Assembly (NCBI GenBank): GCA_034440575.1
Contig: JAOTOL010001459.1
Span: 434,001 to 498,000 of the forward strand
Reading direction: 5' to 3'
Length of the DNA stretch: 64,000 nt
Source: Imbricaverruca yamaguchii
Taxonomy: Eukaryota; Arthropoda; Thecostraca; Neoverrucidae
Both the position numbers and the translations under genes were made by a program. This document shows positions 4,460-59,953 of the stretch, one piece after another. Numbering within the stretch: the stretch's first letter is position 1; each line of letters begins with the position of its first letter. The notes beneath the pieces were generated by a model. That model did no database searches and was not told the origin of the DNA. It saw only the letters and a list, made by a program, of their open reading frames with translations.

Positions 4460-7400
4460 CTGAGGGGAATAGGTCAGGTTACAGGCAGCCCGGTGGCGAG
4501 GGGCACACGTCACGCCACACGGTAGTCCAGTGGAGGGACTCCACGTCAGGCCCATAGCAGTCCATAGATGTCGCAACAAAGCTGACACTCGCCACCCGTC
4601 TCCAGTTGAAAATGGGTACGCTCTTCGGTGTGAATCCCAGGATCTGAAATTCAGGCTCAGGAGGAAATGCTGCTCTTTGTTTGTTTTTAGCAATGCAATG
4701 TTGTGGATGCATCACACCCTAAACACTTTAATTCTGCGTTCGTGATACAGGGCACGTCGCTGAATCAACACCTAAGGCAATGTGCCGATGAGTGCGAATG
4801 ATGTACGGATATTCGACTTTGCCTCAGTCTTTGAAACTTGCTCTCGCTCGTCCAATGCCTTGTACTGGCTTCGGAAGGTAAAAAAAAACACGACACTGGC
4901 TTATAACGCTTATCGCAAGAACTCGACTTGGCAACAGCCAACATGCTTAACATTTCAACATCTACACGCATTCACTAGTTTGAGCCTACCCTACTTAAAG
5001 AAAACGAACCTCGGAAACCCGACCAAAGCTAGGGCATCGCACCAGCAATCGACGACCCACCGCAATCGATCCAAAATATCCCAGAACCACATTATCTAGT
5101 GTCATCGCTACGGTAGGACGGCCACGGATAATTTCATAGTGTCGGCACAAGGTCACCATTCGTATCGAAGGAACAATGGGTACGCTCTGTCACCCTCAGT
5201 CCTTAGATTCCGTGATGCTCGACACCGTGACATCCACCGTCCATTCCTCACCAAATCCAAACAAAGCTGTCGTAGATTCCACGAGAAACTAGTGGACTGC
5301 GACAAGCTGTATTTGTACTGTACTGTGTGGTTCCGGGCTAACTGGCGGCGCTCACGGGTTGGTTGGTTATTTGGGCCTAGGGGCGCATCGACTGCTTCGG
5401 TCATACAGTCGGCGCTCACGGGACCAGGCGACCGGGTCAAGGCAGATGTGGGGAAATTTCGTGAGTAATTCCGCGAAGAGAACATGCTTGGAGTGAGCGC
5501 TACAAAATGTACCCATGGGTGCCAACGCAACTGACAGTGCGATGTTTACAAGTTACACTCGAACGTTTACAAATAACTCGCCTAATGCATTTGGCGCGAA
5601 ACTGTCCAGAACAATCCGCTGCTAAAACCCACGAAAAAGGCAACACAGCGGAACCCGGGTAGGATTTGCGACGAACACAGCGCATCCACCGGCTCATTGG
5701 CCACGACGCTACTCCTACCCAAACACCTTCCACCATTCTCCTCACCTTCTTTCCAGGCGACTTGCCACGCGCGATCGTCGAGGCCTTGCCAATATGCTGG
5801 TGGTTTCCTCCTCCGTGGGGATGCTCGACGGGGTTCATGCATACACCACGCACGATAGGCCACGCGTTCCGCTTGGCCTTGTACTTGTGGAAGGCGCGGC
5901 CGGCCTTCATGATGGGTTTGTCTGTGCGGCCGCCACCGGCGATGATGCCTGCCAACACGGCGCCGACGTGAGCGGAGACACCGTCGTGCGGCGGCCGACC
6001 ACAGCGGCCGGCACGCGTCAGAAACAGCCTCATGGTCGATACGTGGAGAGGTTTCAGCACAGGCTTCAGTCGACAAAATCATCACTCGACACGGGGCGCA
6101 GGCACGTCGGCGGCCGCCGCACGGCCCGGCCCGGCCAGCCTACGTACCGACCATGGCGCGGTTGGTGGATGGGATGACCTTCTTGGAGCCGGAGGGCAGC
6201 TTGATGCGCGTCTTCTTGGTGTCGGGGTTGTGCGACACCACCGTGGCGTAGTTGCCTGCGGTCAAGAGACGCGCCGGTCACACGGGGGCATACTACCGCC
6301 ACCAGGCGGTCGGACAGCCGCCGATCAGAAACAGCCTCTTGGTCGATAAAGTGAGTGGTATCTGCATTATCCTCAGAGTGATTATGATCATCATGGTCAC
6401 CAACATGGGTGTGCACGGCACCGTTCTACCCGGCGGCCACGTACCGGATGTGCGCGCCAGGCGGCCGCGGTCGCCAGACTTCTCCTCCAGGTTGCAGATG
6501 GTGGTGCCCTCGGGCATGCGGCCCACCGGCAGCACGTTGCCGATCTGCAGGGTGGCCTTCTGGCCACAGTAGATGAACATGCCCGTGTACATGCCCTCCA
6601 CGGCCAGCAGCAGCTCCTTGCGTGTCTTGTAGCGGTACGGGTCGCGGAAGTGCACCACCGCCAGCGGGGCGCCGCGGCCCGGGTCGTGAATCAGCTCCTG
6701 GGCGCGCGCACAGGACACGTCAGGCGACCACATCCACGAGACAGGCGGTGTGGTCTTTGATTGATTATTTGGGTTTAAAGGCGCGCCGACTACAGCGTCA
6801 TTTAGCGCCCATGACCTTGACCCTGTTCCCATCGGCACCCCTAATCGCTCTTGATCGCGATCAAGGCACTAATCGCGATCAGGCCGGTCATGGGAACACC
6901 CGTAATCCAGTTAGTAATCCCGTTACTAATCCACCATACGTTCGAGCTGAGCGGGCTTGATCGCGATCAGGACTGACAAAATATGTTTTCGCCTTTTTTA
7001 AAGTTGCGATTGCTAACTATTTAGCAAATTATTTTCATATATTTCTATGTTCTAGTGCGTATTTTGGCACAAAATACATTTGACGTATATTAGTTCATTG
7101 CAAGTATATACCTATATATTTGTGTTCCACCGACCGTATATATTCCACCGTATATATTTGTGTTCATGTTGTTAGGTGCTGATGTGTCGGAAGAAGAGGC
7201 TACCTTTTCTCTGAAGGTGAGTGGAAAGAAACACAATGCTGGGAGGACAGTCTTGCTCGTTTTATATTTATATGGCAGATACAGGTTGACAATTGCCGAG
7301 TCTAGACTCCTGACTTGCTTTCTTCGATGTGGAGCAAACTGAATTGTACGTTGATTGTTGACCATGGTGAAGCTTAGTTCGCAGTGAAAGCAATTATGAC

Positions 7401-10400
7401 ACTGGATAGTTATAAGTAGATGTAAAAATTGGCATTTTAACCTGAAGTAGTTAATTAGGTAGGTATGTAGGTGTATAGGCACCTACCTAGTGGGACTATT
7501 AAAATTATTTCATTATCAGATTGAAGCTTGCGTTCTGAGCTCCAAGACAAATGCTGGATGTATGCGAAATTTCTTATTCACGGAAAGATGTGCATATTTA
7601 TTCCTATCCAGAATCATTCAAGATTCCATTTCAATTTGATGACATCACATTTGTGAACCTGACTTTCCATACCTAGGCAGGTGATGAATCATACATTTTT
7701 TCATTAAGGTGTTTGTGTATTCTTGGATTTGTTTCCAGTGCCACATTTCTAAACATGGTTTTGATGATGTAACCATTCATTTCCTCCGAAAGTGCTTACT
7801 TTTCAGTTGGAAATCAACGTAACACCAAATGCAGTCCTAGGATTTAGGTAGAGTATAGAATGTATATAATCAGTGTATACTATATAAAATAAGCTACAAA
7901 TATACTGTATAAATATGTGTATGATATCAATGTTTGAAAAATGAATATATGTAATGTAATTCTCCTTAGTGCTCCATTCTTCGGATGCAGTCTGGGGGTC
8001 TTTTGTGCCAATCATTTGTACCAAGAAAAGGAGAGGCATTGATCAAGGAATAGTACCTGTAGCTATTCTCATCTTCTGCACTCTGCCTATGTATATACAT
8101 AGTACACTCCTTGAGGGCCTCAATCATTTTGCTTCATAATGGTATCTTCAGCTGCTGTCTACCTATTCAATTTTATTTAATGTCTGTCCAGCATCCTTTC
8201 TATAATCCAACAGTACTTCTCATTTATGGAAAAACTGTTCTAGATTTTCATGACCCTTCTCATATAGTGGACAGCTACCAGTACCAGTTACATTCCTCCA
8301 AACTATTGCTCTTGTCAACCATTATTTTTTAATAAGCAGTTTTATTTTGGTGGCTGTAGCTTGCCTCACCACAGCACTAGATCTGCTAGCAAGTCAGAAT
8401 TCTGCTGTCAGTTCACCAGCTACAAGCTCTGGATCATGCTTCCTCAGCCACCTTAATCTGGGAGATTAGTTAACCTGTCTGTTATCTGGCTGTGAATATT
8501 TGTGTTCATAAAATATCAAAGCATTTCATTACCTGACCACATTCATATACTCCCCATTTACACCTCCTTTGCTTGGGTAGAGGTGACAGCATTACACCAA
8601 GAACAAGGTAGTGGGGATTCACCTTTATATACAAAAATGGTTCAACAAGTGTGGTGCATAGAACATGGTGATTTTCCCCTTGTATTGAAGGTAGTGTTCC
8701 ACAGTTCAAGACAAATGCATACCATCATGGAACTTCATGCTCACATAAGTGTGCATTTCATGCCTCTGAATACATTCAATATTTGACTTTACATAATAAT
8801 CTGCTGGTGGTTCAAGAACTATGGGCTCTGACAAAGACATAAAGACGTCAAATAGTCATAAAAAACCAGTGCAATTATGAGCCACAAGTGCCCTTCCTGG
8901 TTGCACTCTGGACACTCAACCAGTTGCCCACCAAATCCGTTGATCAGCCCTCACTGGAATACTGAAAAGCAAGCTCTTATAGTGATTGTCTGCTGTTTTT
9001 CAAGATGTTCAATGTGCTGCTACTGACAATGGTTTCTGGCAGCTGGTTCCAGTGTTCTACTACCCTGTTGATGAAGAAAGTCTGCCTTAACCTTGTTCTG
9101 CTGTGGTTAACTTTAATTTTGAATCTATGACCTCTAATTGCATCATTTCTGTTCAATTCAAACATTTCCCCCAAGATATCCCCTCTCCAGACCATGGACA
9201 AATTTAAAGACCTCGATGAGATCTCCTCTCAGCCTCCTATATCTAAGTGAAAACATAATCAATTTCTTCAATCTTTCCTCATATGCCAGGTTGCTTATGC
9301 CATTAACAATTTCTGTAGCCATCTTTTGTACTCTCTCTCAAAGCCAACAATCTTTTTCATAACTAAGAGACCAAGCTTGGACACAGTATTGTGCATCTTG
9401 ATTAAGCTTCCTAAGCCACCTTAAGTTGCGAGATTGGTTCACCACTTGTCTCGGTTCTTTGGCTGCAATGTGATGTCTCTGAATACATTATTTGATAAAG
9501 CTTCAAAGCATTTCATAACCTGATTTTGCATACCTAGGTTGAAGTGGCAACACCATGCAAAGTGCAAAATTATGTAAATTCACCTTTTTATATAAAAATG
9601 GTTAGCAGGCTTGGTTTGTTGAGCATATCAGAACAGTGAATAGGTGTTAGCAAATTTGCACCATTAGCTTTTTGAGGTGAAATGCACCTAGGTGGACTTT
9701 TCCTCAATATTTACCGGTCGTATTGAAGCCAATGTTTCAAGCTCCAAGACAAATGATACATCATTGTGAAACTTCCTGTTTACATATAAATGTGCCTGTC
9801 CAGATTCATTCAATACTTGGCTTATAAAATATGAAAATGTTGTATAACCCGACTCATTTCATAACTAGTCACATTTGCAAGCAATTAATTGTGACAAACT
9901 ATGATGGTGCCAGGTACATGGTTTCTTTTGAAGTCGGAGAAGCATATGCACCCTGGACTTTGCCTCAGCCTCAGTCAGCCTCTGTCTCAACTTTGCACAG
10001 AAAGATGGCCAATTCTGAAGATAAATTGAGGGTTGTCCTGTGTGTATGGAATATGGAAATGCACTTATATTAATTTACTGCTTCCTAAGTTACCACTGAT
10101 TTGGTTGATCTACATTGGTGCATGTCATCGGCTGCAAAAGCAGCACCTGCAGCATGTGTCATCATGTACATTTAACTATATAGAGCATGAAACAATGTGA
10201 TGCCCTAAAGTGCAACATGTTTAATTAGCTTACGCCCATTTGCCCATGTCAATTTATCGCATGTGTAATTAGTGCCAGCTGATTATAACCATGATCAAAC
10301 CAAAATATCTATACATGCTGCCAGTGAATTCATTTTCCCAATTCTGACCACAGTTGCACCAAAACTCCTCAGAACCTAATATGGATGTAGCAAAATATAA

Positions 10401-13400
10401 CATATGTTTACCCCTCCAATCTTGTCTTGTGTCTAGCATGTCCTCTATTTCTTGGTTGTCTCACAATGCAATCCTATTTTCAGGACCAGTGTTAATCAAA
10501 CGTTCAGCTAACTGGTCAGAGGAGGAGGTGCACACCCTGCTGGGAGTAGCAATTGAAATGCATCTGTACCAAATGTTGGATGGCAAGAGGCACTACCACA
10601 CAGATGTAAGAATGGACAACATATGGATGTTTTATTTGAGTTCCTTGCACCTACACATTTGTTTCAAAGTGAATATCTAGTTTCATTAATCATTGAACAA
10701 CATGTTAAATTGGGTGGATAAATAAGTGTTATTGATCATGACAATACAACTGCTGGTTCGTTGGTTAGCTATGTGAGTTTTTGGGCGTAGGGGTTTGTTT
10801 TCAGGTTTGGTCATTTAGCGCCCACTCACAATACAACTGCATTTCGGTTGCATACCGTCAATATATTTCGATTTAGCTCATCATGATTTATTTCCTCCTT
10901 GGGCACCATCTATGGTTAGAAGTTGGAGACATAGATTAATGGCTCACATATTTGGTTCAGTAAGCCCCATGTTGTCATCAGCTGGTTGTTGTGTGGAGCA
11001 TTTGTTGTTTTCATATTCACGGATTTGAATGATTCAATAGATGCTTGAAGTAAAATTTTCATGGCCAGACCAAGCCTAGATCCTAGACAAATGAGCCAAT
11101 TTTGGTGAACTGGCACAAATTATTACACCCTATTTAAATTTATACCCCTTCAGTGACGCATACACAGTTAAACTTGGATATTTAACTAGCTCCAATACCA
11201 TCAACCCTGTACTGGTACTCAGAGGTAGCACACCAACCCCGTACAAGCCCGCCCCAAGAAGCTGAAGAAGACTTATCTGTTCAGTGTGCTTCATTGACCT
11301 ATCCCAGGAGTGTGGCTGTGTCATTTCATTCGACTGATATGTCCATGGAAGGAGACTATCTGACATGTCATCTGACCATCTTGTCCGAGCAGTTGAACCC
11401 ATGAAAGCAACCAGTTGTTTCTGAAGAACTTCAGTTGAAAGTATGCACCACTAATAAATAGGCTTCAGCTAATATGTGCAGTTAATAATAATAGGCTTGT
11501 CTGGTGTATTTTGTTCTAAGAATTGTAAATGTTGCCCATTTCGGTGCATATGTTGGACAACTGTTGCCACTGTATAAGCATAGATTGTGCAAGGCTTGTT
11601 TGAATGGCGCCATGCCGGATACTGTTCTACAACAGGCATCTATGTTCATTTTCCTATGGTACAAAGCTCGTGCAGCCATTTTCATTAATCCTTTGCAGGT
11701 GGACAGTGACCTGTCTACGCGACTGAAAGCCAGACGCATGGAAAGGACTGCCGACAAATACAAGGTGAAACTAAAAAAACTAGCCAACAAGCACGAGTCC
11801 GAAGACAACCAGCGATGTGGTTGTGACGTTCCGTGACGGCAGCCAGCCGTTGTCGGCCGCTGGCGATGACATTTCAACGTTGTGCGAAGTGACCAACATC
11901 GAGAACCTGCTCCAGTGTACACATCCGCGTCGGGACCAGCTCCACACCCTAGCCCATCGCGAGTTGCCAGCACGGACAGCCACAGCTGTGATCGCAAGAA
12001 CAGGGGTTGGTCCAACCCATCCACGATCAGCTATGGCGTTTTGGCAGCAGCGGGTGCAAGCTCGCTCTGCGATGGCAACCATGACGGCCTCTCCACCACC
12101 AGTGCTGGTGTCTGGACGCCAGCGGCCGGCAGCACGCCCCGTGACCGGCGGTCAACAGCCATTGGGGCGGAGGGCAGTGATCGTGCTAGTGATGGCCTCA
12201 GCGCCACCCCACTTGTGCACAGGCGCCAGCAGCACCAAGGCAGCAACGGCTCCCAGTGGGAATCATTGATATCCCTCTGGGTGGAGACTGCTGGTGGGGG
12301 GAGGAGGCGGCTGCTCAGCAACGGGACGATGAGCGAGATAAGGCCGCGCTCGAGATCAGTCGGCGTCTTCTGGCGGCCATCGAGCGGTCGGCTGGTCAAG
12401 CGCGTGGTAGACAGCATTGGGAATTTCGCGTCGGCTTTCAGGCACCGACGGTCCCATGATCCGCAACGCTACCCACCACTATGTGCTGCATCGCTGCGTG
12501 ACGGCTGTGCGACAGCTCTGCATCGCTGTCTGCTGCCAGCAGCAGCAACAGCAGCACCGCATTGTTAAATACATATGTTCTCGCGACACGATTTCTGTGG
12601 CGTCGTAATGCTGGGGACGAGTGGCCTAGGGGTAAGTTGCTCGTCTCACAATCGAAAGGTTGTGGGTTCGAGTCTCACCTGTCGCTACTTCGCCCACGAC
12701 CAACCGGCGTGAGAGATTGGCGACGCTACATGACTTAACGGTCGATGTGTCGTAAACCAATAACCAACCGGCATCGTAATGCAGACGTGCATCGGCAGGA
12801 AGTAGGTGACGCCGCCGAGCGTAATGGTGGCCGGAATATCGTCTGAACATTGGCCGTGGTGGATGCCATCGGAAGCAACCATTCGTTGATGATTACGTTC
12901 ATCATCGAGTTTGGAAGAGAATTTGGCTGGTGACCAGAGTCCAGCCGCTGGAACAGCGTTCCGTCTCAGCACTGCTGCCCTCGTGGGGACGCGCCGTCTC
13001 GGTGCGCATCTGGGGAACTTTTTAGTCCTGAACGAGTGAAGGGAAATGGTGCGAACATCAACTGGGGGTTCTTAGACCACGCCTTCCGTGTCATACTAGC
13101 TCTGATACCAAACTTGTGGAACTAATTGAGGGCCCTACCCTACCCGCAGTAGCATCAAACACTCCATGTACTATTCCAAACACAATGAGCATCCGCGGGA
13201 CGAAATGAAGCATTCAGGATTTTTCAACAAATACCCTTCTGAAACCAACGGTTATATATTTACGAAAATGTACCTTCGACATTGAAGACTTGATGTTGGA
13301 GCGCGTTGCACACCAAACAGCTCGGTGACTGCGGTGGGAGGTGGGGTCGTCTCAGGTTGCAACACAGCGGGAGGGGTGCGCGTGGCAGCACAACACAGCC

Positions 13401-18706: not shown

Positions 18707-18763
18707 GTTTTGCTATTTGGGCTTAGGGGCGCTTCGACTGCTTCGGTCATACAGCATCCACAA
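18707..18763 (-). mobile_element. 57-bp LINE-tail micro-insertion with 11-bp target duplication
   Basis: TAATTCCTATA at 18696-18706 and 18764-18774 flanks an insert whose minus strand ends GAAGCGCCCCTAAGCCCAAA and a short A-rich tail. It lies about 0.25 kb upstream of the first RpL8 coding exon, in the 5'-UTR intron or leader region. Confidence 0.75.
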
Positions 18764-20290: not shown

Positions 20291-20300
20291 CCTGACAGCT

Positions 20301-47700: not shown

Positions 47701-50700
47701 TATCAAAATGATATACAAACACGCAATTCTTTTGTACATTTCACCTTTTACACCTGTCAGTAGGGGCAATGCCCACACGTACTTTAAAGTACTTCCAGAA
47801 TTCAACTCTCATATTTCTCAAGAAAATGCAAATATTTTTGAAATTTCTTCTTTCACATACAGAGGTACACCTTTCAAGTTATTTTTATACGGAAAACAAT
47901 GCGGCTTAGTAAGTATATTTACCTCTTTTTGTAGACCAGGTTCTTGCGACCCGCGCCTCCTTCCATGTTCGCTGAATGTCTTCAATTTAGTGGCCTGTGG
48001 CGAAAGTTGAAATTACTTTAGGCTTTCTCAACTGCACTTGTTGGGACGTACTATGAATCATTTGTCTGTGCACAAAAAAAACTAATTGTCTACCTCCCTG
48101 CAAAACAGATATATAGGCGTAAAAGGAGGAACCGGTTCCGCGTCCTTTAAAGTACTCGTGGGCACTAATGGGTTAACGACCCTCTGTAGTGACTGATCCT
48201 GTGGCCTGCTGACGACTCTCTGTAATGACTGACCCCGTGACCTGCTGACGACCCTATGTGGTGATTGACCCTGCGACCTGCTGACGACACTGTAGTGACG
48301 GGGAACGAGTGGTCCAGGAGTAAGTTGCTCGTCTCTTGTGACTAACCCCGTGACCTGCTGACGACCCTCTATAGGGATTGACCCAGTGACCTGCGTGACT
48401 GATCCCGTGACCTGCTGACGACCCTCTGTGGTGACTGATCCTGTGACCTGCGTGACTGATCCAGTGACCTGCTGACGACCCTCTGTGGTGACTGATCCTA
48501 TGACATGCTGACGACCCTCTGTGGTGACTGATGCCCGTGTCTGGTTAACAGGCGGCGGTGGCGGCAGCGGAGGTGGAGGTGGCGGCGGCGGCGGCGGCGG
48601 CGGTGGCGGCCTCAGCCGCGGCGGCCGGCCCGGCGGCGGGTATGATCCGCGCGGCCCGCCACCTCCCATGCCGCAGAGCTTCGACCGCGGGTACGGTGGC
48701 GGCGGCGGATACGGAGAGCGCGACAGAGGCTACGGCTACGGCGACCGCCAGTACAACGGGTCCGCGCCGGCGGGCGGGGCATCAATTTCGCCGGGCCGCG
48801 CGGCCACCGGCGGCAGAGCTGCGCCCTCCCCGTCCCACTGGTGCCGCACTTGGCACGGCCGTGCCGGACCGTGTCGGCGGCCGGCCAGCCAGCTGGGGAG
48901 CGGCGCGTCTCGCCCCGGAGGCCGCCCGGCCCGCACCACTGCAGTGAAGGTTGAGCAGGAGCCGTCCTTATCAGGGCTTCCAGTCACCTCTGTGGGCCGT
49001 GAACGAAATTCGTGCTCCGGTCCTGCGGAGGGAGCGCCGGTAGCGCCGGCGCGCTGTCTCTGTTGTGCAGCATGCGCGGTCGTCTTCATGTTCGCTCTCG
49101 TTCGCATTGTCTCCTCGTGCTATATTTTTATCTTCTTGTTCTCAGTCTCGGCACTCGCCGCACACTCAGTTTGTTTCAATCGTCTGCTGTGCCGCTGCTA
49201 TTTCAGCCTTAGCATGTTGCATACATGGCCCAGTGTAGGTAGTATAGACGTATGCAGATCTACTGATTGTGGGTGTGTGCATCCCCGGAGTTACGTTTCG
49301 TCTTAGCAGCGTGTGAATATCGATGGGCCTCTTCTCAGTTCTTTCTTACTAGATCATTGTTAAGGGTGCGGAGACGGGGGAAGGGAGCAGAGAGTGGAGC
49401 GACCTCCACTATGCGCGCAGACACACTGCACGAGTTAGTATTAACTAGGGGTGTTGCATGGAATGGGTCGACTTCAAAACGTCTCTTTTCCCTCACCCGA
49501 ATCTTGAAACCGTTCCCAAATCACGACCATGGTGTGTCACCACACTGCTGGGTGCGTATGCAGCACTGCTCATTCCTGAAGCTGCTGAAATGGTGGCTGG
49601 CTATCAGGGTTGGTGACATGGCCTTTCCCTGGATGTTTGTCATGTAGGACGTTATCATTTCTTGGAAGTTGTCCATCATTTTTGCCGAAAGATGATGGGC
49701 GCGAAATGACATGACATCATTTTTTAAATGAAATATGATGGGCTTAAGAGCGCGCCCTTAAACCCAAATAATCAATCAACCGAAATATGAATGAGGTTGT
49801 GCCAAATTGACTTCAAGTTCTGCTGTTTGATAATGCCACACGCTGACTCCAAAGTATGAAGCAAGGTTACTGATTTTAGCAACAGAGCAAGGGTTATCCT
49901 GTCAGACTTGAAATTTCCGATTTGTTATGTCCAAGCCCAGTTCAGGATTCCAAAACATAAATACAACCTTGCTGACCACAGAGTTTCAGCACATCCTAGT
50001 CATTCAGTGCATCAGTGCTGATTGACTAGTATTACCACCTGCTATATGACTTACGCAGTCGATATGGCTCTAAGCTACAACTATGGCCAGGATTACCTTG
50101 GACTTGACTTGCTGTGGACAAGTTAGAAGTGATTGTCGCCTGGGATCTATCTAGCTCCACGAACTAGCTGAGGGTGCGATTGTCACGCGCAAAGACGAAC
50201 GATTCACGTCCCGTCAGCTTTGTGTTATCAGTCTATGGTGTTTACAGCCTTTGCCACCAATGAGCTATCCTTGCAAATCCGATGATAAACGTTGACGTTT
50301 GACCATCGTCAGCCGATGGAAGCATTCAATTACCCCTCCCCTACGCTCCTGCAGGTCCGAGTGGGAACGGTGCCTTTCAGGTAGCTAACGGTTTTGGTAC
50401 CCAAGGCACACATACGAGTATGCTCCAGTCATCCCACTCCCCAGTGTCAGACTTGCGCTGTGTCCATCAAAGCGCCTTGCTGTGTTGTTCATCATGAGCC
50501 TGGCCGTTGTTCGGTTGTCGGTTTCAGCTCATCTGGCTGTACGATAGTAAATGATTCCAATAGTAAATTCAATTATTGTGGCCACTTTTTGTCCATGTGA
50601 CTGATGCAGTGACCAGGGGATGGGCAGAGGAACCTGTTGCTCCAGCTCATGATCCAGTTGACATGAGAGAAATAGTCTGCCTTTAATCTAACTAAACTTT

Positions 50701-53130
50701 AACGTAAATAGGCCATGCTGGAGTTTCATGAAGCACAAAGGAACTATTTGGTCGATTCTTTACGAGCCAGGAAGTAATGGTTAAGATCCATAATACCTTG
50801 ACAGATATTATTACACATATTCTTTGGCTAGGATGTTCCGAGAAACGAAGAATCACTCGTTGCTCATAGCCTGAGCTACAGGCTATCAGTGCACATTCAT
50901 GAATAATGTTCATATTTATGACGTATTTGCTTACCATTGCATGCGTATTAAGCTTTACAGTTTCTGGCTCCTGCTATTTAGATATGAATGCCCAACGCCA
51001 GGTATGTAGGGATCATTGTCCGGCTCCTGGTAGAACTCCAGTTGAGCATGTAGCAATGTCCATCTCCTAATAGGCTGGTATTTATGTCCGGCTCCTGTTA
51101 GAACACCAGATGGGCATGTAGCAATGTCCGGCTCCTGGTAGAGCTCCAGATGGGCATGCATCTATGTCCAGCTTCTGGTAGAGTTCCAGATTGGCATATA
51201 GCAATGTCCGGCTCCTGGTATAACTCCAGGTGGGCATGTAGTAATGTCCGGTTCCGGATAGAACTCCAGATGGGCATGTAGCAATGTCCGGATCCTAGTG
51301 AAACTCCAGGTGGGCATGTGACAATGTCCGGTTCCAGGTATGGGCGCGAATGATCAACCCTGGTCGATGCGCCCTAAAGCCCAAATAACTAAACTAAACC
51401 GGTTCCAGGTAGACATCTGCTGTTGGCTTCACAGACAGGTTGGAAGCCAGGCTGGGCGTTTTGGCACTTATTATCCTGCATAGGTATAGGTGTGGTGGGG
51501 AACAATATATGCAGGTTATTCAGCTCGACTGCCAAGCTATTTGTGACTCCAGTTATGCCGGGCGGGCGGCCCTGCCGGCCGGCAGTGATCGTTTTTGTGG
51601 TAGGTCGGTCGGTCGGCCGCGGCGGGGTCGGCGGCCGACGCGAGGCTGTCCCACTGACCGGTGGCCGTGTACCGTCAGGTTCGGCGGCGGCCGGTACGAC
51701 CGCGGCGACCGTGACCGCGGCTTCGGCGACCGCCGCGGCGGATCCAACTGGAACAACAATCGGTGAGTCATGCACCGCAGTCGGCGTGCAGCGCTGTCGA
51801 CGGCGCGGCACCGCTGAGTCACGCACGGTCGCGCCGCTGTCGACGGCGCCGCGCCCACTGTACCGTCAGACGGACCTACCGGAGTGGTCCGCCGGCATGT
51901 GCTGGAGCAGGCCGCTGCTGTTGTGCTGCGCTCCGCCGCCGCCCGGTGAACACCGGTCGGGTGTGGCGCGTGACTGATGTCGGCCAGGCTGCGAAGGGGG
52001 CCCTGTGGGCTCACCACATCTGATGGCCCGAGCCGTGCCAGTACGGTCCAGGTTGATCTGCATAGTCACGAGAGTCATACCGCCACACTAGACGAGACTC
52101 GTGCATCTCCACGTCTCGTGGTCGTAGTTATGTTGACTTCAGTAATTCAAGTAGCTTACGACGGTTTAGTTTAGAACTGTTGTGAGGCGGCAAGTCTCCC
52201 CCTCCAGTAATCCTCTGGGATAAAAATTCGATGGCCGATTTGAAACGTTCAAAGATAACAAAGTGTCGCATATCAGTGTGCAAAGAAAGTACAAAAACTA
52301 CTTCGGGTTACCTCGGTTTAGATTGCGAGGTAAGGTACATACCAAAACTTTATTTTTGCTTCCATACTCAATTTCCATTAGTCATGGCTGCACAGTGTAA
52401 GATAATTGACAATGTAGCCTGGAAATTCACAATTAATGGAATTGTGCTATTTCATCCTTGTCTTAGGTTTTTACCATTTAACCACATGATGTGTTGCCAG
52501 TCACTATACACACGACAGCTAAATAATGTAAAATGCATGTGACTGAAGTGAAATATGTGTATTACAACAACATTCTGTTTTTTATCCTTAGCTGACGATC
52601 CTTTATTTTCTTCCAATCTTCCACTTTTCCCAAGCAACTTCTTTCTTCATCCACACAGTTAATGGTGAAGTAATTTTAGGACACTGTGGCTGCATTGATG
52701 CTAGTGTGATTCTACGGCTTCTGTTAGACCTATTTGTCTAAGTGCTGCCACATAGTAGTCTTACGCTATATTTGACTTGATGAAGTGCTTCGTATGGAGC
52801 TCTGCTGGAAAATTCCGTGCATTCATTTCGATGATTAGTTCTTGTCGCTTTTCGCGAGCCCAGTCGGCTTCTCAGGCCATCATGTGGTTTCATGGCCCCG
52901 GTATGCTTGGGGCGAGGAGGTGACCGCTGGTCTGTGTAACGAATGATGAATGCTGGTCTGTGACGGGTGATGACTGCTGGTCGTGTGGCAGGGGAGGTGA
53001 CCGCTGGGGCGAACGGGATGGCGGTGACCTGCAGCGTAATGATCGCTGGAAGGAGCCGGCCGTCGCCGATGCCGACTGGACCACTCCGCTGCCGCGCGAT
53101 TCTCGCACCGAGGAGGAACTCTTCCAGCAG
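35662..53130 (+). CDS. bel: ATP-dependent RNA helicase DDX3/belle, N-terminal part (five coding exons; rest beyond window)
   Basis: DDX3/belle is a DEAD-box helicase in translation initiation and RNA-granule biology. Exons are 35662-35706, 35890-36007, 48552-48750, 51679-51762 and 52992-53130; phases fit at every junction. The start MSNVPIQNGTGLEQQ matches the conserved belle N-terminus. FAGMDM and NVSRYIPPNRR follow. The third exon is glycine-rich with a run of 14 glycines, then RGG-like and YGYGDR repeats; exon 4 adds YDRGDRDRGFGDRRGG. Exon 5 ends with DADWTTPLPRDSRTEEELFQ, corresponding to the DDX3 DW.KPLP...E.ELF segment just before the helicase core. No Q-motif or DEAD-box exon occurs up to 64000, so intron 5 is longer than 10.8 kb. 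The donor of exon 3 is ambiguous (48750 or 48759; both keep the phase). No damage is seen in the coding part. Confidence 0.93.
35890..36007 (+). CDS. bel: DDX3/belle coding exon 2
   Basis: It follows ttttttcag, encodes FAGMDMRGSAPPPQNVSRYI and PPNRRMDGVDGGASFGQYR, and ends one base into a codon at donor gtaagt. RYIPP is the eIF4E-interaction-like motif region conserved in DDX3 proteins. Confidence 0.93.
36060..36860 (+). repeat. Repeat related to 31740-32665, copy 2
   Basis: 36060-36180 (agggtgggagttaaggcact, acatttttactctgggctca) matches the reverse complement of 32560-32665. 36640-36860 matches 31740-31930 directly. It lies just inside DDX3 intron 2, while copy 1 lies upstream of the gene. 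Confidence 0.6.
37268..37446 (+). mobile_element. Probable tRNA-derived SINE
   Basis: Head GGCATAGGTAACTCCGTGG with A-box-like GTGGCTAAGC, and B-box-like GGGTTTCAATATCCC. The end is A-rich (aaaaccacaatcaataatcc). A short gcaaagg repeat flanks it. Ends are approximate. Confidence 0.5.
37569..38463 (+). repeat. Tandem duplication of a ~446-bp unit
   Basis: 37569-38014 and 38015-38463 share tatgttat, agcattgaatacatagaag, caccaaaaaggggcttttgg, and gcttaaaaaacctta-like ends ending cctaattatagctgggg. Lies in DDX3 intron 2. Confidence 0.85.
38463..38640 (+). mobile_element. tRNA-derived SINE
   Basis: Directly after the tandem duplication. Head GGGGCAGGTACAGCCAGGTA, B-box GGGTTCAATACTC, tail aaaaaacaaaccaaccaaa. 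Ends approximate. Confidence 0.6.
39311..40031 (+). repeat. Tandem duplication of a ~360-bp unit
   Basis: 39311-39670 and 39671-40031 share gaacttgacctgacttga-type starts, gggaagcgcatcagc, aatggcgtatatc, and gggtgggcggatttcgccc ends (a perfect GGGCGGATTTCGCCC hairpin). Confidence 0.8.
40318..42775 (-). mobile_element. pogo-type DNA transposon (approximate ends)
   Basis: The transposase ORF at 41030-42289 is bracketed by inverted copies of GTTCTGTCAYTG: cgttctgtcactgac near 40333 on the plus strand and aatgacagaacc near 42750. Further copies (GACAGAACCTGCCCC) form a palindrome near 40498-40543 and a direct pair near 42370-42417. Exact ends and the expected TA duplication were not fixed. Confidence 0.65.
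41030..42289 (-). pseudogene. pogo-like DDE transposase with two in-frame stops
   Basis: ATG at 42289 begins MVCHYKRKTNRAVTSSDILE. An HTH region follows (GETARSAAKLLGVNRETLR). The frame reaches TGA at 41965-41963, then continues (GVDWLEAFVERNGLSLR; FNLDESGITTVCGVP) to TAG at 41734-41732. It continues again with VTVACAISAVGMAIPPFFAF, VLLLLDNHESHMSLAV and FHRLQPLDVAVYGPIKRHY. The three catalytic aspartates (NLDES, LLDNH, PLDVA) are all present, as expected for the DDE_1/pogo family. The C-terminus changes frame near 41215. It sits antisense in DDX3 intron 2. Only stop substitutions interrupt the core, so inactivation looks fairly recent. Confidence 0.88.
42776..44037. other. Intronic AT-rich stretch, nothing recognised
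   Basis: Part of DDX3 intron 2. Short frames only. Confidence 0.4.
44038..44230 (+). mobile_element. Rearranged tRNA-derived SINE
   Basis: Begins GGGGTAGCTCAGTTGG (tRNA A-box head) but is followed at once by an inverted copy of that head (see hairpin 44043-44079). From 44160 the body matches the SINE at 12612 (caatcggcttaagaggttgg, cgacgctatatgacat). Confidence 0.55.
44043..44079 (+). repeat. Perfect 14-bp inverted repeat of a tRNA head
   Basis: GGGGTAGCTCAGTT at 44043-44056 and AACTGAGCTACCCC at 44066-44079, loop of 9 bases. Confidence 0.85.
44599..44730 (+). repeat. Minisatellite, left part, ~36-bp unit
   Basis: Units of the form ctgtggtgactgaccccgtg plus acctgctgacgaccct. The array is interrupted by the piggyBac element and resumes at 48177. 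Confidence 0.85.
44735..48172 (-). mobile_element. piggyBac-type DNA transposon, 3438 bp, TTAA-flanked
   Basis: TTAA at 44731-44734 and 48173-48176. Terminal inverted repeats start CCCATTAGTTCCCGAG (left) and CCCATTAGTGCCCACGAG (right, reverse strand). Subterminal copies of gtcctttaaagtacgtgtgg occur at about 44866 and, inverted, near 47770 and 48140. The transposase gene reads right to left. The flanks are both the same minisatellite, so the insertion is clean. Confidence 0.92.
45293..47966 (-). pseudogene. piggyBac transposase, two exons, two in-frame stops
   Basis: Exon 1 (47966-47923) encodes MEGGAGRKNLVYKK and ends at a gtaaat donor. Exon 2 starts at 47402 after ttttgcag in matching phase (RSVELTVEHIPSVLEEE). 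An acidic N-terminal region is cut by TGA at 47077-47075 and TAG at 46738-46736, all in one frame. The remaining 471 residues to 45293 hold the DDE_Tnp_1_7 core. Catalytic aspartates are in YVSVDRSMVKYF, KVACDNLFTSLDLL and THMGGVDLLDNM. A C-terminal cysteine-rich domain follows (NVCNHCKKRTLYRCRRCNVG, HPDCFETHHRCC). Full length would be about 717 codons. The core is intact; only the N-terminal part is interrupted. Located antisense in DDX3 intron 2. Confidence 0.93.
48177..48540 (+). repeat. Minisatellite, right part, running up to DDX3 exon 3
   Basis: About ten irregular units of gtgacctgctgacgaccctc plus tgtggtgactgatc, with shortened units near 48390-48460. It ends about 10 bases before the exon 3 acceptor, so it supplies the intron end. 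Confidence 0.9.
48302..48336 (+). mobile_element. SINE head fragment inside minisatellite
   Basis: GGGAACGAGTGGTCCAGGAG then taagttgctcgtctc matches the first 35 bases of the SINE at 12612. It interrupts one minisatellite unit. Confidence 0.7.
48552..48750 (+). CDS. bel: DDX3/belle coding exon 3, glycine-rich
   Basis: It follows ggttaacag directly at the end of a minisatellite. The GGC/GGT/GGA-rich start codes for GGGGSG and then a run of 14 glycines, then GYDPRGPPPPMP, FDRGYGGGGGYGERDRGYG. The end is placed at a gtacaa donor; gtccgc at 48760 is the alternative and would add three residues. Confidence 0.85.
48760..49738. other. DDX3 intron 3, first part
   Basis: GC-rich for about 450 bp after exon 3, then ordinary sequence. 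The frame of exon 3 stays open past the donor by chance of composition, but the following residues do not resemble DDX3. Confidence 0.4.
49739..49781 (+). mobile_element. 43-bp LINE-tail micro-insertion with 9-bp target duplication
   Basis: GAAATATGA at 49730-49738 and 49782-49790. The insert reads ...GCGCGCCCTTAAACCCAAAT then AATCAATCAACC, plus orientation. Confidence 0.7.
49791..51014. other. DDX3 intron 3, middle part, nothing recognised
   Basis: No repeat or gene was recognised. Confidence 0.35.
51015..51425 (+). repeat. Minisatellite, ~40-bp unit, in DDX3 intron 3
   Basis: Units built from caatgtccggctcctggtag and aactccagatgggcatgtag, around eight copies, with one micro-insertion inside. 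It ends about 250 bp before exon 4. Confidence 0.85.
51341..51398 (+). mobile_element. 58-bp LINE-tail micro-insertion inside a minisatellite, 13-bp target duplication
   Basis: CCGGTTCCAGGTA at 51328-51340 and 51399-51411. The insert starts TGGGCGCGAATGATC, has the second arm GATGCGCCC and a tail AAAGCCCAAATAACTAAAC. Confidence 0.85.
51679..51762 (+). CDS. bel: DDX3/belle coding exon 4, RGD/RGG-rich
   Basis: It follows accgtcag, encodes FGGGRYDRGDRDRGFGDRRG then GSNWNNN, and ends two bases into a codon at donor gtgagt. Confidence 0.88.
52510..52690 (-). repeat. Dispersed repeat, partner of 15495-15690
   Basis: The reverse complement matches 15495-15690 (acttcaccattaactgtgtg, gaagattggaagaaaa). 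Located in DDX3 intron 4. Confidence 0.6.
52916..53007 (+). repeat. 15-bp direct duplication spanning the start of DDX3 exon 5
   Basis: GGAGGTGACCGCTGG occurs at 52916-52930 and again at 52993-53007, the first codons of exon 5. Both are preceded by AG (gcgag; gtggcag). Confidence 0.85.
52992..53130 (+). CDS. bel: DDX3/belle coding exon 5
   Basis: It follows tgtggcag, completes an arginine codon, and encodes GGDRWGERDGGDLQRNDRWK and DADWTTPLPRDSRTEEELFQ. It ends at donor gtcagt in phase 0. Confidence 0.92.
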
Positions 53131-53618: not shown

Positions 53619-54288
53619 CCCCCCCCCGATGAGGCATCACCTTTCCGTGGTGGGGGGGATTGCGTGCCTCAAGGATCCGGCGGCCAGACCACCAGGCGGC
53701 CGGGGAGAGGTCAGACTAAGAGTGCCTCACTCGTCCTTCCATCCATGCGTTCCCAGTCCAATCCAAATCTCATCCCCGCATCCATGTCCTTCATCTGGCC
53801 CTGCAACACCAACTGTCCCTACCATGAGCAGGCAGAACAACTTCCCCGGTCCTGCCCACCAGCTCCGTTTTTATCGGGGTAGCCGCGCCCCCTCGGCCGT
53901 CCCCAGGGGTTGACGGAGTCCTGGAGGTTGAGGTCCCCCGTCGCACGGTGCTAGTTGTGACGGGGGACCAACACACCTCTTTGGTCCTGATATCCCGGAG
54001 GGGCGGGCGGGCCCGTGGGGCCTCACGCGGGCCAAGTGGCTGGTCGCCTCGGGCTGGGGGCCTGGGTTTCCCAGTGCCTGCCGGCCCGGCCGGCCGGGGT
54101 CAAGGGGTGGGTGGCGCTGGATCCTGGTCGGGGTGGTGAGCTTCTCTCTCCCGACCGGGTGATGGTGTCGCCTGCCCCGTATAGTTTCTCGTTCACCTGG
54201 CGTCCTCCCGTTCGCGGGATCAAGGCGTCCTCCCAGTTGAGCCCCCAGGGGGTGGGGTGTCACGAGAAGCCGAATAGAATCATACTAC

Positions 54289-55988
54289 ATGGCAAATCCT
54301 AATCTAAACTCAAATCCTGGGACTTCTCGAGGACCAGACTGGCCAAATCCGCGAGGGGCATGGGCGCGTGACCAATTGTAGTGTGCAAACCCATAGCTTT
54401 CGCACACTTGTTTTCAAAGCAGTGGAGGGATCAAGACCGCTAGCGACCTTATCACCCTTCCAGCGTCGTGATGGTTGTGACAGACTTGGAACTATCCTGA
54501 GGTGTGAACGACTGAGAGACGGTGGACTTGAAGTAGAGTTCGGAAACAGTAAGGACGCAGAAAAGGCAATGACAGCTACTGAGTTTAAGTTTGCGATTCG
54601 TAGCCACAAGGGGAGTCACGATGTTGCTATCCCAATGCTGGTCTCTATGCATAAAACGAAAAACTCTGTGAAAGGTATCATCAATTGTTATGACCTTCTA
54701 GGTGTAAGCGACGAAGATATCGTTGATGGCCTGAACGAGTTTGGAGTGGTGGAGGCCAGACGCATTCGTATTCGTAAGGGTAATACTATGGTACCAACCA
54801 ATAACATCATTTTAACTTTCAGCCGACCTGACTTGCCACCCGATATTCGCGTAGGCTATGCCAAGGTGAAGATTCGTCGTTTTATCCCAAACCCGATGAG
54901 ATGCCACGGATGCCAGAGGTTTGGACATACCAAACAAAACTGTAGGAATCGCCAGCTCTGCGGCAGGTGCTCATCACCGGAGCATGATGACTCACAGTGC
55001 AGCGCAGATAAACCGTGGTGCTCCAACTGTGGAAGCGACCAGATACCACACTCTGCGTATGACAGGTCGTGTCCGACATATCTCAAGGAAAGAGAGATCA
55101 TGTCTATCAAGGTCACCAGAAACTTATCATTTAGAGAGGCAAGGCAGGCTTACGACGCTGCCCACCCGAGGGTATCTTACGCCGCAATCGCCAAAGCCAA
55201 CAGAACCACACTAGCTGTACCAGAAATTCAGAGAGGGAGTGCCGCGGACCTTCTCTCGCAATTCGGCGAACTCCTTCGCTCTTTCGGCATGACGTGCGTA
55301 CCACTGACTGAAAGAAGTACGTTGCCACCGAAAGAGAGGGCAACCCGTAGCGGTACCTCGACTGATACCCCACCTACGCATGAAAGGACCCGTGACGTCT
55401 CTGTACCTCGCGCACATGCAATAAGTTTTGTGCAAAGTGGGTTGCCCGCTGAAATCTCCGCCACTGCCTCCTTGGAGCCAGAGGTGGGAGAGTGGCGTGA
55501 GGTGCAGCGGAGGAAGCTTCCCAACAAACCCTCAGCTTCCACATTGGCACCTACGTCAGCAATCCTTCCATCCACCAATACCAAACCGGCCCCAAGTCCC
55601 CCCCTCCCTCTCGTCTCCCAACTCCACTTCCACACCCTCACCAGCACCATCCTATGAACCCAAACCCTTGTCACCTACTTCCAGTCAGCCCACCTCCATC
55701 ACCCGGGGACGTACAACCCGACGAGAGTCGGTCACCTCGAGCCCGGAGCCCGGGAGCCAACGCCATATCGTGACCCCTCCGCCTTCGTCACCAATCCGGA
55801 ACGTGATGGGACCCCCGGAAGTCCCCCCGCGTCGAGCCGGACACACACCGATTTCTCCCCCGACCTCGAGCCGCGTTGCAAAGCGGACCCTACCTGGGGC
55901 GGTGTCACCAACAGAATTGGGTATTTCACGCACGCGCCCACGACATCAAACATCCCCGGTTGCAAAACCTGCAACTGAGCAGCACTAG
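54289..55988 (+). pseudogene. LINE ORF1, gag-like RNA-binding protein, needs two frame changes
   Basis: ATG 54289-54291 starts MANPNLNSNPGTSRGPDWPN, but this frame stops at 54379-54381. The main frame is open from 54308 to 55657 (no ATG near its start) and carries the conserved core (AVEGSRPLATLSPF; RFIPNPMRCHGCQRFGH). Three knuckles follow: CHGCQRFGHTKQNC, CGRCSSPEHDDSQC and CSNCGSDQIPHSAYDRSC. A third frame then continues with a proline/serine-rich tail to 55988 (RRAGHTPISPPTSSR). ORF1 binds element RNA and forms particles with ORF2 in related elements. The frame changes could be mutation, sequencing error in C-rich runs, or frameshifting. Confidence 0.8.
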
Positions 55989-56047
55989 TTTGGATCTGAA
56001 ATCTTAGTCGTCTTACCAACATTTCACTTCTTCAAATTTTAATTTGA

Positions 56048-59000
56048 ATGCCTGGAATTTTACAATGGAACTGCAGAGGGCTGAAAACTAGTTTATTGGA
56101 TCTCCAAGCTGTGACCAGCAAGTACCTCCCAGCTGTCATCTGTCTCCAAGAGACGAAGCTGGCATCGGATGCCCGTTGCATTATTAAGGGATATTCCGTA
56201 TTTCGAAAGGATATTCAGACTGACACCGTTGCGCACGGCGGCGTGCTTTTAGCCGTACACCACACCATACCTGTACATGAATTAGTTTTGCAAACCTGTC
56301 TACAAGCTGTTGCTGCTCGCATCAACTTGAACCAACGTGCACTGACAATTTGTTCTGTGTACTTGCCGCCAGGACTCTCTCTTCCTGCTGCAGATCTCCA
56401 TCTCCTAATGCTGGAACTCCCTCCCCCAGTTTTACTGTTGGGAGACTTTAACGCACACCATACCGTATGGGGATGTTTCGCCACAAACTTACGTGGCCGC
56501 CTCTTAGAATCCTTCATTCACGACGAAGCCCTCTGCCTTTTAAACACAGGATCCCAGACACATATTGCCCTCCCATCCGGAAATAAGTCTGTTTTAGATC
56601 TAAGTCTGTGCAGCCCTCAGCTGTTTCAATCTTTCACTTGGTCGGTGGCCGACGACCCATTGGGCAGCGACCACTTTCCGGTATGGTTGGCTTACCAAGA
56701 TGAATTAGTCCTTAGGCCGAGACCAAGGCGATGGAATTTAAAAAAGGCCAAATGGACCGACTTCGAGAATAGACTTGAAGCAAATTTTTCTGCCAATTCT
56801 CTCTGTTTGCCAAAATACATAGAAGAATTTACCTTAGTACTCATCAACTGTGCTATTGTTTGCATCCCAAGAACTACTGGTGCCCCCCGACGTTCCGCAG
56901 TCCCATGGTGGACGGACGAGTGCGGAAGCGCCATTCGTGCACGCAAACGGGCATTCAGAGCATTAAACCACAACTGTACCGACGAAAATCGCATAGCGTT
57001 TCTTCGTGCCAGAGCCTGTTCTCGTCGAACTTGCCTGGAAGCCAAACGGGTATACTTCCGCTCCTTTTTAAACACTCTCACCCACCGAACACCAGTCGCC
57101 CAAATATGGACGCGTATTAACAGGATCGCGGGAAAGTTCTCGTCCACACCACTGCCTGTACTGCAGGTAGGAAGTCGGGTCATCTCTGATCCTTCCGTCG
57201 TGGCTAATGAAATTGCACGTGCGCTATCGGAACGCAGCCGAGAGGGAAGCTTTGAGCCACAAATCGCACGCCCCCAAACCCGCCACGAACGACCTCCAAT
57301 AGACTTTTCAACCACCGAGATACTTTCATACAACGCACCATTCACCGCGACTGAGCTGCTTTCCGCCGTGAATGCCCTACGGAGTGTATCTGAGGGCCCT
57401 GATGAAGTGCACAACGACATGCTAAAACATCTTCCTCCCAATGCGCTCCACGTGCTTTTAGGACTTTTCAACGGACTATGGGAAAGAGGAGGCTTTCCAC
57501 CCTCATGGCGAAAAGCAACAATAATTCCGATTCTGAAGCCTGGCAAGAGTGGATCTGATCCAATACATTACCGACCCATCGCCCTCACCTCATCATTATG
57601 CAAACTCATGGAGAGAATGGTGAACGTACGTTTGATGTGGTTTTTGGAGCACTCCAAATTTTTTGCAAACGCGCAGTGTGGTTTTAGAAAGAACCGCTGT
57701 ACAGTTGACCATATTTTATCACTAGACACAGTGATACGAACAGAGTTTCAGCGCAAACGACACATTGGCGCTGTCTTCTTCGACATTGAGGGCGCGTATG
57801 ATACGACTTGGCGACGTGGCATTCTTCTAAAAGTTTTTAGGCACGGTATACGCGGACATATGGGGAAATTTTTGCAAAACTTCCTAGCCGACCGATCCTT
57901 CTGTGTCCGAGTGGGGAATCGGTACTCTGATAGCTACCCACAACCTAATGGTGTTCCACAGGGCAGCATTTTGAGCGTTCCCCTGTTCGGAATTATGATT
58001 AATGACATCGGCGACAACCTCCCATCTACCATCGGGCGATCGTTGTTTGTGGACGACTTCGCCATTTGGTGTCCTGGTTCGAAGGTCTCCTCCATGGAAA
58101 GGCAGCTCCAGTCTGCCGTAACACGACTACAGCGATGGAGTTCGGCCAACGGGTTCCACTTTTCAACTTCTAAAGCTGTCTGTATTCATTTCTGCCGGCG
58201 GCGACAGTGTTCCCGGGATCTGTCGCTTAGCCTCTATAGAGAGACCATCCCTTGCAAATCGGTGGTTCGTTTCCTTGGAATTCACTTTGATACGCGACTT
58301 TCGTACAAGGAACATTTTAAGGTCATACGTGAGCAATGTTTTAGATCTATGAACATCTTAAAATGCATATCTCGTACTACATATGGGGCGGACAGGAGAA
58401 CCCTGCTTGTCTTGTATAGATCCTTAATTCGCTCAAGACTGGACTACGCTAGTTTTGTGTATGACTCTGCAAGCGATTCCACCAAGCGTACTTTAAATAC
58501 GATACACCACTCTTCACTGCGCATCGCTACTGGAGCATTCCGCACCTCGCCAACAGCGAGTCTCCTTGTTGAAGCAAACGAACCATCGCTCGCCATGCGC
58601 CGTCAGATGCTGGGCATGCGGTATGCTATCAAGCTGGCACAGTTTCCCGACCACCCCACATATCAAGCGGTCTTTTCATCTCGTAACTTCCGTCTGTTTC
58701 AACACAGACGGCCTTCATATATGAATCCGTTCTGTGTAAGAATTCGAGAACTATTCCAGGAGAGTGGGATCAGGCTGCGTGGTGTCCTCCGGACAACACA
58801 AATCAGAACTCCCCCATGGGAATTGACCTCCCCAAGTATTGATCTCTCTGTAGCCGAAACATGTAAACAAAGTACCACATGCATAGAATTGCAGGCACGA
58901 GCCCTCGAAACCATCTGGTCGTACGAGGGGTATACAGCCACATACACCGATGGCTCTAAAACTGATACAGGCGTCGGAAGCGCTTTTGTATGTGGTAATA

Positions 59001-59655
59001 CTACTCGGGGTTTTACACTGCCACAGCATGCATCCGTTTTCACAGCAGAACTGGTGGCTATTGCCAAGGCTCTTTCTTTTATCCAGGTAGGCGACGGAGA
59101 TCTACACCTGATCTTGTCTGATTCTCTCAGTAGTCTTATGGCCCTGAAACGATTTAGCCCCCTAACCCCATGATACAAGACATACTGTTGCTCATTTCTT
59201 CCCTAGCTCGGGAGGGGAAAAGTGTGGTACTGTGTTGGATACCAAGCCACGTCGGAATTATTGGAAACGAGCTCGCGGACGCTGCAGCTAAACGCTCAGC
59301 GAATGCACACTGCACGCGTCGGTTGCCACTCCCTGCAAGGGACTTCTACCGAAGTATATCTGTTTACCTACAAACCAAGTGGCAGTCTTCTTGGGATGCT
59401 GTCCTGGGCAACAAACTGAAGGTGTTAAAACCCCATCTGGGGGCATGGCAGTCCTGCTCGCGACGATCGAGGCGTGAGGAAGTGATTCTGTGCCGCCTTC
59501 GGTTAGGACACACGTATTTTACACATCGCTACCTTCTATGCTCGGAAGAACGGCCAGTCTGTCCACGTTGCGGGGACAACCTGTCTGTGGCCCATATTTT
59601 CAGCACATGTTGTCATCTTCGAGCGGAACGTCGTCGCTTCTTTGGAACCCCATAG
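56048..59655 (+). pseudogene. LINE ORF2: APE endonuclease, reverse transcriptase, RNase H; one frameshift
   Basis: Starts MPGILQWNCRGLKTSLLDL. Endonuclease motifs: LQWNCRG, ICLQETK, LLGDFNAHH, GSDHFPVW. RT motifs: PILKPGKSGSDPIHYRPIAL, CGFRKNRCTVDHIL, VFFDIEGAYDTTW, NGVPQGSILSVPLFG, and catalytic FVDD at 58046-58057. RNase H: YTDGSKTDTGVGSAF, FTAELVAIAKAL and LSDSLSSL. A one-base shift near 59160-59170 in a C-rich stretch ends the first frame at 59173. The remainder of RNase H (CWIPSHVGIIGNELADAAAK) and a cysteine-histidine end (CPRCGDNLSVAHIFSTC) continue in the next frame to 59655. All catalytic residues are present. It starts 60 bases after ORF1. Confidence 0.92.
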
Positions 59656-59892
59656 CCCACCCTGGTGGAACTACTGGGCGACGGGTCACACTATGTCGCT
59701 GAACTGTTCCCATTCCTTTCTGCGATTGGAATTGACGTCGTGTACTCACGCCAACAAAGGTAGGATATAAGCGCCAAACATTTTTATCTTCTCTTAACAC
59801 GCCATCAGGAAGTGCACTAGCGAATTGTAACCCCAGTCCTCCAATTTACTCCACGTCGACACGTCCACAACTGGTTTGACTGACGAAGTTAT

Positions 59893-59925
59893 GGGCGCTA
59901 TATAACCTTTGCAGTTGATGCGCCC
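59893..59925 (+). other. 3'-terminal hairpin of the full-length LINE
   Basis: GGGCGC at 59893-59898 pairs with GCGCCC at 59920-59925 around a 21-base loop containing GCAGTTGAT. The same arms and loop words recur in the short insertions across the window. By analogy with other LINEs it may be the 3' end recognised by the reverse transcriptase. Confidence 0.75.
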
Positions 59926-59953
59926 CAAAACACCAATAACAACAACAACAACA

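Follow-up and report, generated by a model that had tools for sequence, protein, structure and literature searches.

Micro-copies of a LINE 3' hairpin and tail in the Imbricaverruca yamaguchii genome, and a possible role of the hairpin in setting their 5' ends

Recognition of a 3' stem-loop by the reverse transcriptase (RT) of a long interspersed nuclear element (LINE) is established for UnaL2, ZfL2, SART1 and R2, according to a review (PMC5135761). In bivalves, LINE donors were identified for just three of eight families of short interspersed nuclear elements (SINEs), according to a second study (PMC10294476). Here we analyse a 64,000-nucleotide stretch of the Imbricaverruca yamaguchii genome (assembly GCA_034440575.1, contig JAOTOL010001459.1, positions 434,001 to 498,000; hereafter "the window") together with other loci of the same genome (L numbers below). 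Both contain short insertions, termed micro-copies, that consist only of a hairpin (GGGCGC...GCGCCC, or part of it) and a short-repeat tail, the same elements with which longer LINEs of this genome end. While recognition of the 3' stem-loop is known, the swarm of hairpin-only insertions, with ends that the hairpin may set, is the new part; no description of such swarms was recognised in the open-licence literature searched.

The initial annotation of the window listed seven such segments with flanking direct repeats. Six of them carry exact duplications of 11 to 14 bp, as stated. Five lie on the minus strand: 5359..5409 (51 bp, a loop of the family called C below, start inside the left arm; 13-bp duplication 5346-5358 / 5410-5422), 10754..10827 (74 bp, with a complete left arm and a right arm that has diverged; 13-bp duplication 10741-10753 / 10828-10840), 18707..18763 (57 bp, with a loop of family C and a left arm that is degenerate; 11-bp duplication 18696-18706 / 18764-18774), 19528..19561 (34 bp, start at the right arm; 12-bp duplication 19516-19527 / 19562-19573) and 28852..28886 (35 bp, start exactly at the right arm AGTTGATGCGCCC; 14-bp duplication 28838-28851 / 28887-28900). 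The sixth, on the plus strand at 51341..51398, is 58 bp long, has TGGGCGC as its first bases and is flanked by a 13-bp duplication (51328-51340 / 51399-51411). It stands at the end of a 40-bp tandem array. The boundary of the seventh, listed at 49739, is ambiguous: it can be read as an 84-bp plus-strand copy at 49696..49779, with a whole hairpin, an expanded loop, first bases TGGGCGCG and the near-duplication CCGAAA[G/T]ATGA (49685-49695 / 49780-49790), or with the 9-bp repeat first proposed (49730-49738 / 49782-49790). Two plus-strand micro-copies were absent from that list, one at 43250..43289 (40 bp, start in the left arm; duplication CTTAT[G/A]ATTTATGCT, 43235-43249 / 43290-43304) and one at 43428..43463 (36 bp, start in the loop; 12-bp exact duplication ACTGATAGGTTG, 43416-43427 / 43464-43475). 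A further probable micro-copy, at 50041..50080 (plus strand, 11.8 bits), starts in the left arm and has a weak duplication, equalled in 65 of 500 shuffles. Finally, two minus-strand hairpin copies with whole left arms, 6757..6812 (ATGGGCGC...) and 22468..22512, had been reported to lack visible duplications, and the shuffle test agrees: none rises above chance (481 and 480 of 500 shuffles, respectively, as good). Expanded-loop hairpins were seen at 49696-49779 and at L023:1378-1560, where pieces resembling the arms enclose tandem GTATGACCAAC-like units.

The window also holds a structurally full-length LINE of 6335 bp, LINE W (53619..59953, plus strand), flanked by a 13-bp exact duplication, ACTGCAAGAGCTG (53606-53618 / 59954-59966). 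As the initial annotation had noted, it ends in the same hairpin architecture (GGGCGC...GCGCCC at 59893..59925, plus strand), followed by a CCAATAA(CAA)n-like tail. Its first open reading frame (ORF1, 54368-55657, plus strand) shows CCHC motifs by eye and no Pfam match at 1e-3. ORF2 (56048-59173, plus strand) has endonuclease (EN) and RT domains and is interrupted near 59173, its C-terminal, zinc-finger-like part continuing in another frame. An RNase H domain (PF00075, precomputed) is present in 29 of the 30 best-listed ORF2 homologues, which are 56-60% identical. We take LINE W to belong to the I superfamily. A more distant LINE occupies L047:3790-7900; the hairpin at 7880, with a degenerate left arm, is either this LINE's own end or a micro-copy.

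Taken alone, short sub-motifs of the hairpin are not enriched in the window (15 occurrences against 9.75 expected, with as many in 7 of 100 shuffles, and 8 against 8.9 for another), so the case rests on the joint motif and on the duplications, and on that footing the observation of hairpin-and-tail insertions flanked by duplications was confirmed. A profile scan of the genome, proposed with the initial annotation, was carried out on the window and on 200 kb (20 random stretches, all lying in contigs C1040-C1430 within their first 480 kb). The profile, built from nine sequences, needs the right arm or the tail to score, and tail-only copies are missed by it. At 10 bits or more it gave 12 matches in the window and 23 in the random stretches, against none in Markov-resampled and none in reversed sequence; the window copies at 10754 (8.5 bits) and 43428 (9.6 bits) fall below this cut and outside the tallies. 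Scaling the 23 matches per 200 kb to the genome gives about 88,000, a figure that may include some SINE tails. In the whole 767-Mb genome, a 27-base pattern of right arm plus tail occurs at 17,402 places at least, and its reversed version at none. This and the pattern counts given below are lower bounds, made with up to 3 mismatches over 40-42 bp (27 bp for right arm plus tail).

Duplications were scored at 85 hits, comprising 30 selected by an exact pattern (first places listed), the 12 of the window, the 23 of the random stretches and 20 in the flanks of selected places. Scores of 9 or more were reached by 44 of the 85 hits and by 13 of 335 flank-swapped pairs. Low-complexity duplications were dropped (that of L012 resembles one), and L016 and L029, having similar flanks, may represent one event. 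The Markov-resampled, reversed and flank-swapped controls led us to reject coincidence. A satellite was rejected as well, the copies sampled being interspersed, each with its own duplications and without tandem head-to-tail order. So was a miniature inverted-repeat or other DNA transposon: the inverted repeat begins at the 5' end but stops at an interior point, leaving the tail outside, and the duplications vary between 10 and 17 bp. An exact-tail scan of viral contigs gave no match.

That micro-copies arise by target-primed reverse transcription of LINE 3' ends, as the initial annotation had suggested, is well supported, because variable duplications and microsatellite tails are joined by an empty site and by longer repeats (LINE W and the repeats A and B described below) ending in the same hairpin. 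The duplications have a median length of 13 bp (range 10-17, n = 40 scoring 10 or more), and the tail extends a mean of 1.15 nt into the duplication, against 0.33 by chance. The empty site is found at L027:1960-2109, where a 47-bp micro-copy lies inside sequence of LINE A: L027 differs from both L003 and L014, which hold exact paralogous empty sites, by a single 63-bp block made of the insert and a 16-bp duplication. Variable-length duplications, homology of the 3' end with that of a LINE and a short repeat tail, the traits expected of a LINE product, are thus found together.

The position at which copies begin was counted from the first G of GGGCGC, in hits with a duplication score of at least 9 ("usable"). 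A fixed 5' end was found in all 21 usable copies among the 30 selected by the exact right-arm pattern, which start between -5 and +1; 20 of them fall within -2 to +1 (11 at -1 and three each at -2, 0 and +1), and one starts at -5. The nine selected places not used were the longer LINE A copies L003, L014, L019 and L027, along with L012, L013, L017, L018 and L021. Among the 55 unselected hits 23 were usable, one of which (window 12724) is a tRNA-derived SINE and was left out. The remaining 22 comprise 12 with a start at the foot of the hairpin, 3 that start in the left arm and 7 that start in the right arm or the loop. For the 15 copies from outside the window the numbers are 10, 1 and 4, the ten foot starts having a p of 1.9e-7 against uniform starts (7 of 70 positions searched). 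The ten copies from random stretches alone divide into 7, 0 and 3, and the seven from the window, most of them picks of the initial annotation, into 2, 2 and 3. These foot counts include window 18707, L031 and L047 despite their degenerate left arms, and window 49739 is tallied as loop or right arm, using the boundary first proposed. The L037 hairpin, 90% identical to that of LINE W over 50 bp, also starts at -1, with a duplication score of 8, below the cut.

Ordinary random 5' truncation of LINEs, followed by decay that trimmed old copies, would account for partly truncated elements such as L019, and these do exist. It is a very improbable source of the swarm, given that start points cluster at one spot and that copies with the family A sequence, or very close to it, have exact duplications immediately next to the hairpin. 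A wider search, extending to -1500 for exact repeats of 11 bp or more, placed the best repeat near the hairpin in 30 of the 85 hits and far from it in 5, with none in 50. The far repeats belong to the SINE loci L005 and L018, to L048, which is nested beside a SINE, to a tail-like repeat in L009 and to an 11-mer in L002, a locus where a 15-bp duplication with a single mismatch lies closer. No clear far duplication was thus seen for GGGCGC-type copies in this search.

The hairpins fall into several loop families. In L003, L014 and L027 coding sequence for the ORF2 of LINE A lies 0.7-0.8 kb upstream of the A hairpin, with an amino-acid identity to LINE W of 57-60% (L003, L027) or about 40% (L014). 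The 3' untranslated region (UTR) of LINE A ends in ...GAGTTAT (L003) or a variant, followed by the hairpin, whose left arm has been lost in L014; L019 matches LINE A up to about 66 bp above the hairpin. Repeat B, another body shared by L052, L053, L055 and L056 and ending in ...AAGAGTTAT or a close variant, is presumed to be a LINE; approximately 75 bp of its body were fetched. Hairpin-only copies with B-type loops (L006, L023, L051) start at -2 or -1. Family C is represented by hairpin-only copies, namely window 5359, window 18707 and L054 (start -1). Among eight sampled places, four hold long copies of B and one (L058) a long variant of A; L051 and L054 are micro-copies with duplications, and L057 is ambiguous. 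Genome-wide, family A has at least 894 full hairpins and 49 matches extended upstream (27 and 47 for two upstream variants, taken as a union), or 5.5 per 100; family B has at least 443 hairpins and 184 extended matches, or about 42 per 100. The patterns used for the two families are not exact equivalents, and an extended match need not be among the counted hairpins. The B hairpins listed include the subtypes GTCGATG, GTCCATG, GTCGACG and GTCCACG, the GTCC ones breaking the G-U pair of the upper stem.

These counts bear on the alternative raised in the initial annotation, that of a tail-only SINE: an RNA of about 50 nt, made of hairpin and tail with a fixed 5' end, would form a non-autonomous lineage of its own, at least in family A, and would use LINE enzymes that recognise the hairpin. 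The fixed start of the 21 usable selected copies, 19 of which are family A, would follow from such an RNA, as would the scarcity of extended matches in A and the variation of the hairpin-only share between families. Against it, the inserts are too short to accommodate a pol III promoter, and reading those of the window showed hairpin and tail only. Copies of several loop families share this start (A, B, C in L054, and the type of window 51341), and 10 of the 22 unselected copies, window included, start inside the hairpin. No tRNA was found in the window at the Rfam gathering level, in a weak scan that also missed the SINE head at 12612. We regard a tail-only SINE, in family A at least, as possible but rather unlikely.

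RNA folding of five hairpins gives a lower stem of 6-7 bp (GGGCGC/GCGCCC), an internal loop and an upper stem of 4 bp in A, B and W, 5 bp in the SINE type and 6 bp in the 51341 type; the terminal loop has 7-8 nt in A, B and W and 4 nt in the other two. The tail begins with CCC-AAATAA-like sequence and continues with TCAA, CCAA, CTAA or CAA repeats. Shuffled sequences fold as well in 16 (A), 9 (W), 0 (B), 0 (51341 type) and 6 (SINE type) of 200 cases. Single folds are thus weak for A (z -1.6) and W (z -1.9), and it is the pair counts that support the stem: across 32 hairpins, 92.2% of pair cells hold standard pairs, against 32-43% in slid controls, and 24 stem cells are changed on both sides, against 7.7 in shuffles, these paired changes being traceable for the most part to two inherited groups (7-8 SINE rows and 7 A-U rows). 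These hairpins share with stringent-type LINEs a conserved stem-loop with a bulge near the 3' end. Longer 3' UTRs fold little better than shuffles (z -0.7 to -1.6), the hairpin being part of the predicted optimum for B (L056) and LINE W. Predicted hairpin energies are -13.3 (A) and -16.4 kcal/mol (B) as RNA, and -7.4 (A) and -9.2 kcal/mol (B) as DNA; the A hairpin as DNA stands at -3.5 kcal/mol while its left arm is still incomplete.

The occurrence of one start in several loop families, with A and B having different upstream bodies, points to the hairpin as the element that sets the end, and starts inside the hairpin fit RT stops. We therefore favour hairpin-determined 5' ends in target-primed reverse transcription of stringent-type LINE 3' ends, an explanation to which we assign even chances. 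The template would be the 3' end of a stringent-type LINE RNA, the enzymes having EN and RT here and an RNase H domain in close homologues. Copying would end some 1-2 nt past the 5' foot of the hairpin; more rarely it would stop inside the left arm or where loop and right arm meet. The preferred cause is fold-back: when the inverted repeat has been copied and can pair with itself, the end of the nascent DNA would come off its RNA template, and RNase H would help to free nascent DNA folded after copying of the left arm.

The nearest alternative to fold-back is cleavage of LINE transcripts at the 5' foot of the hairpin by a host nuclease, RNase P-like or other, that recognises a stem-bulge-stem hairpin, with subsequent copying of the 3' fragment to its end. 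The sharpness of the selected starts is what run-off copying would produce, and the hairpin consists of two stems joined by an internal loop. Presumably it resembles minimal RNase P substrates. Cleavage would need extra RT stops for copies that start at +4 to +7 or at +14 to +22, and no ribozyme match at the hairpin foot was obtained at the Rfam gathering level in the window, L003, L019 and L027. We consider it improbable as the source of the fixed ends, though less so than random truncation.

Several observations weigh against hairpin-determined ends as well. Fold-back itself is a cause that we only infer, and the starts in family A vary so little that a discrete short RNA accounts for them equally well. 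The A hairpin folds weakly on its own, and the predicted optimum of the longer 3' UTR of L003, a family A copy, lacks the hairpin. A usable duplication is absent in 41 of the 85 hits, and no coding sequence was seen in the fetched body of repeat B. Finally, the extended share is far lower in A than in B, although the B hairpin is predicted to be the stronger. This skew runs opposite to hairpin strength, so that strength alone is no explanation. The proposal of the initial annotation, that reverse transcription aborts within or just past the hairpin, agrees with the start points; its simplest version is at odds with the A/B skew and the L003 fold. Given the direction of the A/B difference, family A may owe part of its copies to a discrete short RNA, whether cleaved or SINE-like, and extra amplification of this family by a SINE-like route, on top of hairpin-determined ends, is likely.

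A tRNA-derived SINE is present in the window at 12612..12769 (plus strand; A/B-box-like head and body by eye), flanked by the 13-bp near-exact duplication GGC[G/A]TCGTAATGC (12599-12611 / 12770-12782). Its tail is a hairpin of micro-copy architecture with another, compensated stem sequence (CGACGC/GCGTCG). By eye, the same SINE family occurs in L005, L009, L018, L026, L027, L029, L039 and L041. Other features of the window include an open piggyBac-type transposase frame (DDE_Tnp_1_7, 471 aa, 45293-46708, minus strand), an RT frame (RVT_1) of another LINE type (32992-34056) and, at 5700-6700 on the minus strand, a region that resembles ribosomal protein L8 exons on reading alone. Tandem repeats of 36 bp and 40 bp lie at 44568-44683, 48153-48567 and 51025-51344. 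Repeats of one large family, both direct and inverted, lie at 23868-31743 and 63455-63819; among the matches listed they measure about 83-226 bp and are 80-97% alike, with some arms 32 kb apart.

Tentatively, and with somewhat more doubt than confidence, we propose that the LINE 3' hairpin of about 35 nt may be a minimal promoterless retroposition module, combining an entry signal for RT with a signal that ends copying (by fold-back or RNA cleavage), and that each LINE family would thereby seed insertions of about 50 bp with defined ends, tens of thousands in all. If so, one RNA hairpin would set both the start and the stop of LINE reverse transcription, and the micro-copies would be a natural data set for RT stops during target-primed reverse transcription and would suggest one way in which SINE tails may have come from LINE tails. 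SINE_Scan uses tRNA heads and RepeatMasker a minimum score of 400, as given in PMC10294476. Abundant insertions of about 35-85 bp, with duplications of 10-17 bp, would tend to escape both head-based SINE finders and high-score repeat masking, and would offer a large supply of short presence/absence markers.

Among known systems, 5'-truncated LINE copies (L1, CR1) are likewise 3'-anchored and flanked by duplications; in contrast to theirs, micro-copy starts are concentrated in the last 50 bp or so, at structural landmarks. SIDER, TSIDER and RIME elements are several hundred bases long and contain 5' LINE sequence. They resemble the insertions described here in being short non-autonomous relatives of LINEs (for SIDER and TSIDER, see PMC3820030), whereas the micro-copies of the window measure 34-84 bp. 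The tRNA SINEs with LINE tails that occur in molluscs and other animals (Meta, Deu, V and Nin groups; PMC10294476 and PMC11121367) have their counterpart in the SINE at 12612-12769, which ends in such a hairpin, while micro-copies are the tail only, without head or body. There is also a likeness to stringent-type LINEs (UnaL2, ZfL2, SART1, R2), which, according to PMC5135761, show a bulged, small-loop 3' stem-loop common to LINE and SINE, tail repeats, EN and RT, and target-primed insertion; here, however, a large class of insertions consists mostly of the hairpin, by which their 5' ends appear to be set.

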